Assembly (NCBI GenBank): GCA_013214705.1 | Contig: JABSRZ010000004.1 | Span: 62,001 to 126,000 of the forward strand | DNA from: Hyphomicrobiales bacterium | GTDB taxonomy: Bacteria; Pseudomonadota; Alphaproteobacteria; Rhizobiales; OSC116 | DNA: 64,000 nucleotides | Direction of reading: 5' to 3' | Shown: positions 52,283 through 54,602 of the stretch, piece by piece | Layout: each line of letters begins with the position of its first letter | Position numbering within the stretch: position 1 is the first letter of the stretch | Notes under the pieces: model-generated | Database searches by the model: none | What the model was told of the DNA's origin: nothing | Seen by the model: the letters and a program-made list of their open reading frames with translations, nothing else | Made by a program: the position numbers and the translations under genes

Positions 52283-52975
52283 ATGACCCAGATTTCGCAA
52301 CAAGATTTGTCGGCTCTAAATGCCAAATTCGCCACTTCAACCCCACTAGAAGTGCTTCAATATGCGGTAAAACAACAATTTATCGACAATATTGCCTTGG
52401 TTTCATCTTATGGCGCGGAAGCGGTTATCCTGCTACATCTGGTGTCACAAGTCGATGCCAATTTGCCGGTTATTTTCATTGATACTGGCAAATTATTTGG
52501 CGAAACAAAGCGTTATCGCGACAAGGTGAATCAGCTACTTAACCTCACCAACATCATTAGTTTTAAAGGCGATGAGGACGAGATTAAAGCTGCCGACCCC
52601 AAGGGCATTTTATGGGCAAAAGACACAACTGCATGTTGCCTTGTGCGCAAGGTGTTGCCTTACGCTCGTGCCACCGAGCCATATGCCGCGCTCATCACTG
52701 GTCGCAAACGTTTTCAGGGCAATAGCCGCAGCCAATTGGATATTTTTGAGCTGGCAAATGGCCAAGTTAAGATTAACCCACTGGCCAATTGGGGCTTAGA
52801 TGAGCTTAAAAATTACATTTTAGACAATGACCTCCCGCGCCACCCCTTGGTTGCCGACGGCTATCTGTCTATCGGCTGCATGCCGTGTACTGACAAAGTC
52901 GAAACCGATGGTGAATATCGCGATGGCCGCTGGCAAGGCCAAGAAAAAACCGAATGCGGCATACATATGTTGTAG
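52283..52975 (+). CDS. cysH: Adenylylsulfate/phosphoadenylylsulfate reductase, 4Fe-4S type
   Basis: Reduces activated sulfate to sulfite with thioredoxin. The 230-residue protein has the PP-loop-like SSYGAEAVILLHL, FIDTGKLFGET, and the C-terminal catalytic ECGIH. Both Cys pairs of the iron-sulfur form are present (ACCLVRK and GCMPCTDK), which usually marks APS-using enzymes. Because CysNC can also make PAPS, the in vivo substrate is open. AAGGAG precedes the start. It is the last gene of the sulfite operon, ahead of the ECF sigma gene by 80 bp. Confidence 0.94.
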   Translation: MTQISQQDLSALNAKFATSTPLEVLQYAVKQQFIDNIALVSSYGAEAVILLHLVSQVDANLPVIFIDTGKLFGETKRYRDKVNQLLNLTNIISFKGDEDEIKAADPKGILWAKDTTACCLVRKVLPYARATEPYAALITGRKRFQGNSRSQLDIFELANGQVKINPLANWGLDELKNYILDNDLPRHPLVADGYLSIGCMPCTDKVETDGEYRDGRWQGQEKTECGIHML

Positions 52976-53054
52976 ATGGGCATATGTTATAAAATATTGC
53001 ATCTTTTTGCTGCTTTTCGCGTCTATGATATAAGCAAATCAAATAGGAGCGAAA

Positions 53055-53582
53055 ATGCAGCCAGAATGGACATATTTTAGCCAACAAATTGGCCGTTTCA
53101 TTCATTCGCGGGTGCAAAATTCAGCCGATGCCGATGACATAACCCAAAACACCCTGTTGAAAATCCACCAAAATATCGATAGTTTGAACGACAAAACCAA
53201 ACTCGAAAGTTGGATATACGCCATTGCGCGCAACCATATAAACAGCCATTTTCGCCAGCATAAAACTGACCCGATTGCCAACGGATCAGCCACAAAATTG
53301 GACTTTTTACCGATGCAAGATGAAGATGAGGCCGCCATATTTGAGCTGGCATGTTGTTTAGAACCATTCATCAAAAACTTGAACCCATCTGCCCAAGAGG
53401 CACTTAACGCCACAAGTTTTAATGGCCAAAGCCAAGTCGATTATGCCAAAGGCGCCAACATCCCCCTACCCACCGCCAAAGCCCGGGTGCAGCGGGCACG
53501 CAAACAACTGGCCAAAGAAATTAGCAAATGCTGCAAATACCAACAGGGCGAGATTATTTCGCAAAATAAATGCATCCTTTAA
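53055..53582 (+). CDS. ECF RNA polymerase sigma factor, SigZ-like
   Basis: A 175-residue sigma factor. Region 2 (about 10-75) has DADDITQNTLLKIHQNI and WIYAIARNHINSHFR; region 4 (about 115-160) has FNGQSQVDYAKGANIP and AKARVQRARKQL. The C-terminus carries KCCKY plus a last-but-two Cys, a CC pair also seen in SigZ proteins and perhaps a metal or redox sensor. No anti-sigma gene is adjacent. A gene for a 31-residue Cys-rich peptide starts 45 bp downstream on the same strand. GGAGCG precedes the start. Confidence 0.88.
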   Translation: MQPEWTYFSQQIGRFIHSRVQNSADADDITQNTLLKIHQNIDSLNDKTKLESWIYAIARNHINSHFRQHKTDPIANGSATKLDFLPMQDEDEAAIFELACCLEPFIKNLNPSAQEALNATSFNGQSQVDYAKGANIPLPTAKARVQRARKQLAKEISKCCKYQQGEIISQNKCIL

Positions 53583-53627
53583 CCCCGCAGCGCGTCTCAC
53601 TTATGTAACCAATAACCGGAGATAAAT

Positions 53628-53723
53628 ATGCCAGATAAAGATAAAAATACAACATCATGCGATTGTAATTGCGTATCAGACGATAAATGCAGTTGTAAAT
53701 GCTCATGCAGCTGCAATTGCTAG
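53628..53723 (+). CDS. 31-residue CxC-rich peptide, metallothionein-like
   Basis: A very short gene after CCGGAG at good spacing. The peptide starts MPDKDKNTTS and then has nine Cys, at 11, 13, 15, 21, 23, 25, 27, 29 and 31, nearly all as C-x-C with Asp, Asn, Ser or Lys between. There is no signal peptide or hydrophobic stretch. The pattern suits metal-thiolate binding, as in small metallothioneins, but no known family is matched. It follows the ECF sigma gene by 45 bp and probably shares its transcript. A modified-peptide precursor is an alternative, though no modifying enzyme is near. Confidence 0.7.
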   Translation: MPDKDKNTTSCDCNCVSDDKCSCKCSCSCNC

Positions 53724-53730
53724 CCATTTT

Positions 53731-53765
53731 TGAGAGTTAGGTTTTAAAACTGAGCCTAACTCTCA
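53731..53765. other. Perfect 11-bp inverted repeat after the CxC peptide gene
   Basis: TGAGAGTTAGG (53731-53741) pairs exactly with CCTAACTCTCA (53755-53765) across 13 bp. No T run follows on either strand, so it is at best a weak terminator. It overlaps the stop codon of the convergent EamA gene and could protect mRNA 3' ends. Confidence 0.7.
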
Positions 53766-54602
53766 CATCCGCAACAAGACCATGCCCGCCAATGTGGCCA
53801 ATGTGGCAACCAGTTTTAACGCGCCAAACTTTTCTTTAAAAAATACCACGCCAATGAGCATGGCAAACATAATGCTGCTTTCACGCAGCGCCGTTACTAA
53901 GGCTATCGGCGCTTGGGTAAACGCCCACATGGCGATGGCAAATGCCCCAAATGAGGCCAAGCCGCCAAACACCATTATGAATTTTTGGGTTTTAAATACC
54001 AAAGCCAAATTTACCGGTTTGACCAAAGCAATAAACGCCGCAAAGCCAAACCCATTGGCAATGGTCAAACACGCGTAAAAACCCAAACTATCGCCAGATA
54101 GCCGAGCGCCGGTGCCATCTACCAAGCTATAAGCCGCAATAAAACATGCGGTAACCAAGGCAAAAACAATGGCTTTGCCATCGCGCCCACCACGGCTATT
54201 TTTGGTAAATGCCAGACAAAATACCGCAAATATAATGGCCGCCAAACCCAATATAGTGGTAAATTCAAACTCTATATTCCATACTATTACCGAAAATATC
54301 GTCACAATTAAGGGCGCAGTGCCGCGTGATATCGGGTAGACAAGCGACAAATCGCCTAATTTATAAGCGCTTTGCAGCACAATTTGATAACCGATATGCA
54401 ACAAGATTCCAATGGCCAAATATACCAAACTGGCTGGGTTGGGCCATTGCGCAAATGGCAATGCGACCATGCCCCATAACGAGCTGCCAAACACCAAGGC
54501 GGTCATGGTTAGCAATTTATCGGTTTGAGATTTTGCCACCGCGTTCCACGTTGCGTGCAACAAAGCGGCAAAAATAACCGCCGCAAATACAAATAAACTC
54601 AT
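53763..54602 (-). CDS. EamA family (DMT) transporter
   Basis: A 279-residue membrane protein of about ten helices in two repeats: ALLHATWNAVAKSQTDK at the start of the first, and the second ending with ALVTALRESSIMFAMLIGVVFFKEK. It belongs to the drug/metabolite exporter superfamily; the substrate is unknown. It is divergent from the LysR gene at 54756, its probable regulator. Confidence 0.85.
   Translation of the reverse strand: MSLFVFAAVIFAALLHATWNAVAKSQTDKLLTMTALVFGSSLWGMVALPFAQWPNPASLVYLAIGILLHIGYQIVLQSAYKLGDLSLVYPISRGTAPLIVTIFSVIVWNIEFEFTTILGLAAIIFAVFCLAFTKNSRGGRDGKAIVFALVTACFIAAYSLVDGTGARLSGDSLGFYACLTIANGFGFAAFIALVKPVNLALVFKTQKFIMVFGGLASFGAFAIAMWAFTQAPIALVTALRESSIMFAMLIGVVFFKEKFGALKLVATLATLAGMVLLRM

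Follow-up and report, generated by a model that had tools for sequence, protein, structure and literature searches.

A SigZ-like ECF sigma gene and a very small CxC-rich gene as a conserved pair: a candidate metal(loid)-stress circuit

What could a 31-residue peptide with nine cysteines do directly behind the gene of an ECF sigma factor, and to which signal would such a sigma factor answer? The question arises from one locus of the window, i.e. the whole 64-kb stretch of DNA analysed here (64,000 nucleotides), which belongs to a genome of 3.5 Mb in 45 contigs. An earlier note had described a sigma gene followed after 45 bp by a tiny Cys-rich gene with a good ribosome site and nine Cys in 31 residues, and all of these were recovered at the same places. 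The features are as follows:

53055-53582, + strand: SigZ-like ECF sigma factor, 175 aa (sigma-2 about 2-68, sigma-4 about 89-159, Cys-bearing tail 159-175)
53618-53621, + strand: ribosome-site-like GGAG upstream of the peptide ATG, read from the sequence
53628-53723, + strand: CxC peptide gene (31 aa, 9 Cys), proposed metal(loid)-binding effector
53731-53765, no strand assigned: hairpin 3' of the peptide gene, overlapping the final bases of a convergent EamA gene

The sigma protein matches Pfam Sigma70_r2 (4.6e-12), and its nearest family is SigZ (Bacillus subtilis type). The name "SigZ-like" was well chosen: the best NCBIfam matches are two SigZ models (4.5e-44 and 7.6e-39), yet the protein stays under both curated cut-offs, with 150.6 of 212 bits for one and 133.3 of 168.65 bits for the other model of the pair TIGR02959 / NF007215. 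SigZ was reportedly described in Bacillus subtilis in 1997. The available text of the literature searched assigns it neither a signal nor a regulon. Two further SigZ-type genes were met close to the source organism: a genome of the same genus carries a second SigZ, above the family cut-off and without peptide (L033, G004:C87), and a genome of the same order has a SigZ-like gene with an in-frame TGA (L005/L172, G038:C3), with no Cys-rich peptide found at L005.

The peptide itself (MPDKDKNTTSCDCNCVSDDKCSCKCSCSCNC) has its cysteines at positions 11, 13, 15, 21, 23, 25, 27, 29 and 31, i.e. seven overlapping CxC, and contains neither aromatic residues nor His. In a scan of both strands of the window for ORFs of 18-60 aa beginning with ATG, no other ORF reaches 7 Cys together with 20% Cys; two further ones qualify when the threshold is lowered to 5 Cys. 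A chance ORF was rejected as an explanation, since no other of this kind exists in 64 kb and shuffles near sigma genes give an expectation of 0.0. Among the properties by which metallothioneins are recognized, small size, Cys richness, CxC motifs and few aromatic residues are all present, and a match to a described profile is lacking: neither Pfam nor NCBIfam gives a match for the window peptide up to E 0.1, or for 8 related peptides up to E 10. The hairpin downstream is unusually stable (fold z -5.33, with 0/200 equally stable shuffles); on the + strand a T-run lies before it and none after it, so that it is not a textbook terminator. An RNA element was also considered and rejected, with no Rfam match in 52900-53900.

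Lack of the peptide beside sigma genes in relatives would have counted against the earlier proposal, and the peptide proved to be conserved there. An orthologous sigma factor (64-74% identity) is present in 3 of 5 same-genus genomes, and in 3/3 the CxC peptide gene follows directly; G003, of the same genus and 95% complete, gives no sigma match, and G002 (71% complete) a weak one (4.8e-4). Outside the phylum, Gillisia limnaea carries a 14-Cys peptide immediately upstream of the sigma gene. A strict peptide was defined as having at least 8 Cys and at least 25% Cys, on the sigma strand and within 250 bp. The SigZ model identified 45 places in 44 of 296 Bacteroidota genomes, and among the 44 usable ones a strict peptide is present at 17 and absent from 27. 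The survey of 398 Pseudomonadota genomes gave 37 places in 36 genomes; 36 of these 37 places lack a strict peptide, the only one that has it being the window's own. Two loci were left out: L115, where a contig end cuts the sigma gene, and L172, with its in-frame stop.

A search for small Cys-rich ORFs beside SigZ-like genes was run on 84 loci besides the window (44 from the Bacteroidota survey, 36 from the Pseudomonadota survey and 4 from the genus) and yielded 20 strict peptides on the strand of the sigma gene; the same-genus loci, which had been chosen deliberately, account for 3 of these. None was found on the opposite strand within 250 bp at the same 84 loci, none in 500 strand-kb of farther flanks, none at 34 control ECF loci, and shuffled flanks gave an expectation of 0.0. 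When the limits are relaxed to 20% and 5 or 7 Cys, 4 or 2 ORFs, respectively, turn up in the 500 strand-kb of farther flanks. Most of the control loci are from Alphaproteobacteria, and the set includes L005, the interrupted SigZ-like gene, and L007, which scores 149 bits to the SigZ-like profile. Thirteen extra SigZ-like loci from outside the first surveys added 2 strict peptides (G915 and G965), with none at the 4 alphaproteobacterial loci among them. At another of these thirteen loci a different kind of ORF, with 26 aa and 6 Cys in CC pairs, lies upstream of the SigZ-like gene (G746; L198, 1288-1368). The apparent 7-Cys peptide of L092 was discarded, as it lies inside the following ArsP-type gene.

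The peptides are of several kinds which share little except Cys, for example MSDENKCNCTCNSDNKCNCSCTCNCDC, MNNCKCTNCDCTKCNCKNCLESNCPCTKCECDKCTCC and MKNLTECTCTECDCVVTPCNCDCCGGS. In 6 of the 7 related pairs compared, third-position changes are at least twice as frequent as those at either other codon position, and in the same 6 pairs 3 to 8 Cys codons swap between TGC and TGT with the Cys retained; the seventh pair (L034 and L035) has three base differences in total. These biases indicate that the peptides behave as coding genes selected for Cys. One might still regard the small ORF as a non-protein by-product of conserved DNA or RNA behind the sigma promoter, for it is very short, matches no family and has a translation that is predicted only; with the codon biases just described, the same Cys-rich character in differing sequences across several branches, and shuffles that yield none, we hold this to be very improbable.

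A tree of the sigma factors places the window's genus in a clade of its own (100/100). A single origin of the pairing was rejected, as peptide-linked sigmas fall in several subclades; deep forks of this tree are open and bootstrap values unsettled. Among plasmid relatives (52 annotated records, four regions opened) the best was Hymenobacter, with arsC/ACR3 genes about 2 kb on; it was not retained as a pair, for an element-like sequence one letter off does precede its sigma gene but the small neighbouring ORF is not Cys-rich. The Priestia, Vibrio and Rhodococcus regions contain, judging by names in the annotation, no peptide of this kind.

We then have to ask what ties the two genes together. 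Each of them is preceded by a copy of the same promoter-like element:

52998-53024, + strand: promoter-like element 1, TGCATCTTTT-N12-CGTCT, before the sigma gene, 30 nt to the ATG
53571-53597, + strand: promoter-like element 2, TGCATCCTTT-N12-CGTCT, before the peptide gene, 30 nt to the ATG

Both copies read TGCATCYTTT-N12-CGTCT, and the second overlaps the sigma stop, its first three bases being the Cys173 codon. A motif shared by the window and Gillisia, TG(C/T)ATCTTTTTG-N10-(C/G)GTC, had been noted before other loci were inspected. Element 1 agrees with a 15-position consensus at 15/15 positions, a score reached by 0/100 shuffles; at L074, 1/100 shuffles matched equally well. In the same-genus loci the element lies between sigma and peptide genes in 3/3 cases (14-15 of 15 positions). 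It precedes the first gene in 23/23 peptide loci with 13-15 of 15 positions, a score to be read knowing that the consensus was derived from most of the loci scored, L180 and L182 having been found after it was drawn up. Where the peptide gene is downstream, a further copy stands before it in 8/8 loci. The pair is a unit, and with a copy of the element before each gene the sigma factor very probably controls the peptide, as the earlier note had suggested.

How specific is the element? In each of 4 genomes of 3-4 Mb a strict pattern matches a single site, in every case the one at the pair, and the reversed control has 0 matches; the window's genome contains the strict form once. This pattern was written after more loci had been seen, so that its informative part is the absence of other matching sites. 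A relaxed pattern, which brought out element 2 in the window, has 35 matches on the sigma strand of the 84 loci, 1 on the other strand and 0 when reversed. Genome-wide, in 80 genomes, it has 60 matches vs 42 for the reversed control, 2 of the 60 being in 14 Bacteroidota genomes without a SigZ match; given this background, a lone relaxed match means little. Specificity lies only in the strict form and in the placement next to sigma genes. As to a wider regulon in the window genome, the sole relaxed match beyond the locus, the third in number (contig C41), lies inside an ORF of the other strand and was taken as chance, so the circuit appears to serve itself. The sigma factor would be the protein that recognizes the element.

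The nature of the signal was approached through the genes near SigZ-like sigmas. Eighteen loci have the element and no real peptide, and 17 of these were looked at (L049 was not passed on). At 10 of the 17, the gene behind the element reads as an arsenite methyltransferase ArsM (3), an ArsI/CadI lyase (3) or an ArsP-type permease (4), these names being given by reading plus family scans. After 14 of 164 predicted ORFs had been dropped, 150 neighbours of SigZ-like genes were scanned at E 1e-10, with matches not all above curated cut-offs: ArsI/CadI 9, SO_0444 8, ArsR-type 6, ACR3 5, ArsM 3, ArsJ 3 and metal P-type ATPase 3; in Pfam at 1e-5, 8 ORFs also match ArsP_1. For 64 neighbours of 33 control ECF genes, the 25 families listed (out of 148 and out of 54) include no such metal gene, and NepR, ChrR, PhyR and anti-sigma factors appear instead. 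At L112 and L113, peptide and sigma genes follow ArsR and ACR3 genes, the ACR3 of L113 being recognized by 94% identity to that of L112; as these loci are close kin, the direct link between peptide and arsenic rests on one lineage. Only one arsenic gene, the ACR3 of L112, was found among 10 scanned ORFs beside Bacteroidota pairs, most of which are not metal genes, and the window's scanned neighbours include none.

The arsenic-type genes near SigZ-like sigmas, together with the context of L112 and L113, point to As(III) or another thiophilic metal(loid) as the likeliest inducer, with Cd, Zn, Cu or Hg as remaining candidates. The earlier suggestion was that the sigma factor may sense metal or thiol stress; a metal/thiol link is supported by the genes for arsenic and soft metals that surround SigZ-like genes elsewhere. 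The same circuit could well be induced by Cd, Zn, Cu, Hg or disulfide stress, in which case the arsenic genes would be part of different branches of the family. A range of d10 metals is bound by CxC peptides, the neighbours include models for Cu/Zn exporters of the SO_0444 type and for Cu/Zn/Cd P-type ATPases, and the ORFs scanned beside Bacteroidota pairs are mostly not of arsenic type. In the available part of PMC8999054, moreover, the sigma factor CorE responds to Cu(II) and CorE2 to Cd/Zn. Against this, no other metal families near SigZ-like genes are as numerous as the arsenic-type models, and one lineage of pairs follows ArsR and ACR3 genes. We give the alternative a substantial chance, somewhat short of even.

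Other neighbours recur. In three Bacteroidota loci (L072, L192 and L196) a gene that reads as PhzF-like and is not obviously metal-related directly follows a peptide-less SigZ-like gene, with the element right before it at L072. ORFs for HtpX protease (6) and glutathione S-transferase (7-8) are repeatedly found near SigZ-like genes and might be further targets. The earlier note proposed that the sulfate-assimilation genes just upstream might supply cysteine. In the window, cysH (52283-52975) is located upstream of the sigma gene; it is directly upstream in 3/3 same-genus relatives too (77-86% identity), and no sulfate-type gene of its kind was seen among the 10 scanned neighbour ORFs of Bacteroidota pairs.

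If the sigma factor binds a metal(loid), its own cysteines are the candidate ligands:

53352-53357, + strand: Cys100-Cys101, on the first sigma-4 helix as modelled (helix 89-107)
53529-53534, + strand: Cys159-Cys160 of the tail, present in 21/21 peptide-linked sigmas

The AlphaFold2 model of the sigma factor (pLDDT 81, pTM 0.45) shows two helical domains, predicted with confidence, and after them a short tail. Matches of 20 solved ECF sequences stop at profile position 154 or earlier, i.e. before this tail, which is therefore an addition; the part beyond the solved ECFs carries only 3 Cys. The C-terminal Cys mentioned in the earlier note are indeed in conserved Cys columns (Cys159/160 and Cys173), as is Cys100/101. 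In the alignment, from which L094 was left out for the Cys table, Cys101 is kept in 21/21 peptide-linked sigmas and in 46/63 sigmas without peptide. One more tail Cys beyond the CC pair, C173 in the window, is also kept in 21/21; a final tail Cys is present in 19/21 and absent from the window sigma.

A Cys-rich partner next to a Cys-bearing sigma factor suggests another role for the peptide, i.e. chiefly that of a regulator, as a Cys-rich anti-sigma factor or a metal donor acting on the sigma Cys tail, and not of a bulk chelator. Both partners are Cys-rich and tightly linked, and no anti-sigma family is among the 25 families listed (of 451 and of 135) for neighbours of SigZ-like genes. The peptide sequences diverge strongly between branches, little but Cys being kept, unlike what a specific binding partner would show, and the second Cys of the tail pair persists in 58/63 aligned sigmas that have no strict peptide. 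A profile of the flavobacterial kind of peptide, run on 296 Bacteroidota genomes, found 8 places: the 7 source sequences and one orphan in G138, a Cys-rich peptide after a TfoX-like gene (L167, 1495-1614), like L074/L108. The 3.1 kb examined there contain no SigZ-like gene and, by reading, no clear element; the SigZ-like profile has its top matches in G138 at other places, and they are weak (no better than 6.8e-31). Sigma gene and element seem to have been lost and the peptide retained, so that the peptide seems useful alone. This orphan speaks against the sigma-sequestering role that the earlier note had considered, and we regard a mainly regulatory peptide as unlikely.

The pair is real and conserved, and it probably forms a metal(loid)-stress circuit that has been overlooked. 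What the data establish is the genes, their conservation, the element and the linkage. Our preferred reading, which we judge fairly probable on genomic grounds, is that of a CorE-like sensor that would work without an anti-sigma factor, detect As(III) or some other thiophilic metal, and induce itself and a metallothionein-like sequestering peptide. The locus would act as a one-component stress switch without anti-sigma factor: the sigma factor would use Cys101 and the CC...C tail to bind As(III) or some other thiophilic metal(loid) and become active, and the active form would bring RNA polymerase to TGCRTCYTTT-N11/12-CGTCT promoters, a motif observed in the right position whose recognition is predicted. 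Since clear sites in the genome occur only before the sigma and CxC peptide genes, the output would be more sigma factor and much peptide. The metallothionein-like peptide, taken as cytosolic because it has no hydrophobic stretch, would chelate the metal(loid) and protect thiols; by removing the inducer it would also turn the sigma factor off again. The broader proposal is that SigZ-like sigmas are widespread anti-sigma-free direct sensors of As(III) or soft metals, with one promoter conserved across phyla and, in several branches, with metallothionein-like CxC peptides, a class not described so far, as main or sole output; we see this as an even bet.

If this reading is true, two small genes are enough for a complete metal-buffering circuit. 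The shared element, the arsenic neighbours and the peptides would give SigZ-like sigmas a concrete signal and output, and, since neither Pfam nor NCBIfam recognizes the peptides, annotation may lack a class of bacterial genes for metal buffering. A sigma factor with essentially one natural target locus might also serve as a compact part for biosensors.

A sigma/CxC-peptide pair is not described in the literature searched, and an earlier mention in the ECF classification (10.1093/nar/gkaa1229) is possible. With SigZ, most aligned SigZ-like proteins and the window sigma have the CC...C tail in common, and they differ in that 64 of 84 SigZ-like loci have no strict peptide. The bacterial metallothioneins such as SmtA/BmtA and MymT are likewise small and Cys-rich, and the window peptide is without aromatics; the peptide would presumably also be under a metal-responsive regulator. 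The peptides described here (26-48 aa) differ by having no Pfam or NCBIfam match and by being placed under a sigma factor instead of a repressor. MymT is named as being under RicR in the available part of PMC10141476. The heavy-metal regulon of Caulobacter sigma-F, as described in the available part of PMC3511200, is comparable as an alphaproteobacterial ECF sigma factor in heavy-metal response. The closest analogues are CorE and CorE2 of Myxococcus xanthus (ECF44, now ECF238), for which the available parts of PMC8999054, PMC3107203 and PMC10141476 describe ECF sigma factors with their own Cys in place of an anti-sigma factor, a Cys-bearing C-terminal tail and control over metal-handling genes. 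CorE reportedly answers to Cu(II) and CorE2 to Cd/Zn, both require Cys in the linker and in the C-terminal domain, and ECF287 and ECF288 are further groups with Cys-rich extensions (available part of PMC8999054). CorE has a linker CxC and a Cys-rich domain, whereas the window sigma lacks this CxC motif and carries a CC at 100-101 in the first sigma-4 helix of the model. As CorE targets the available part of PMC10141476 names a multicopper oxidase and a Cu ATPase, and the word "metallothionein" is absent from the CorE paper in its available part (PMC3107203). According to the same part of PMC3107203 the CorE -35 contains AAC, whereas the element shared by the sigma and peptide genes reads TGCRTCYTTT.
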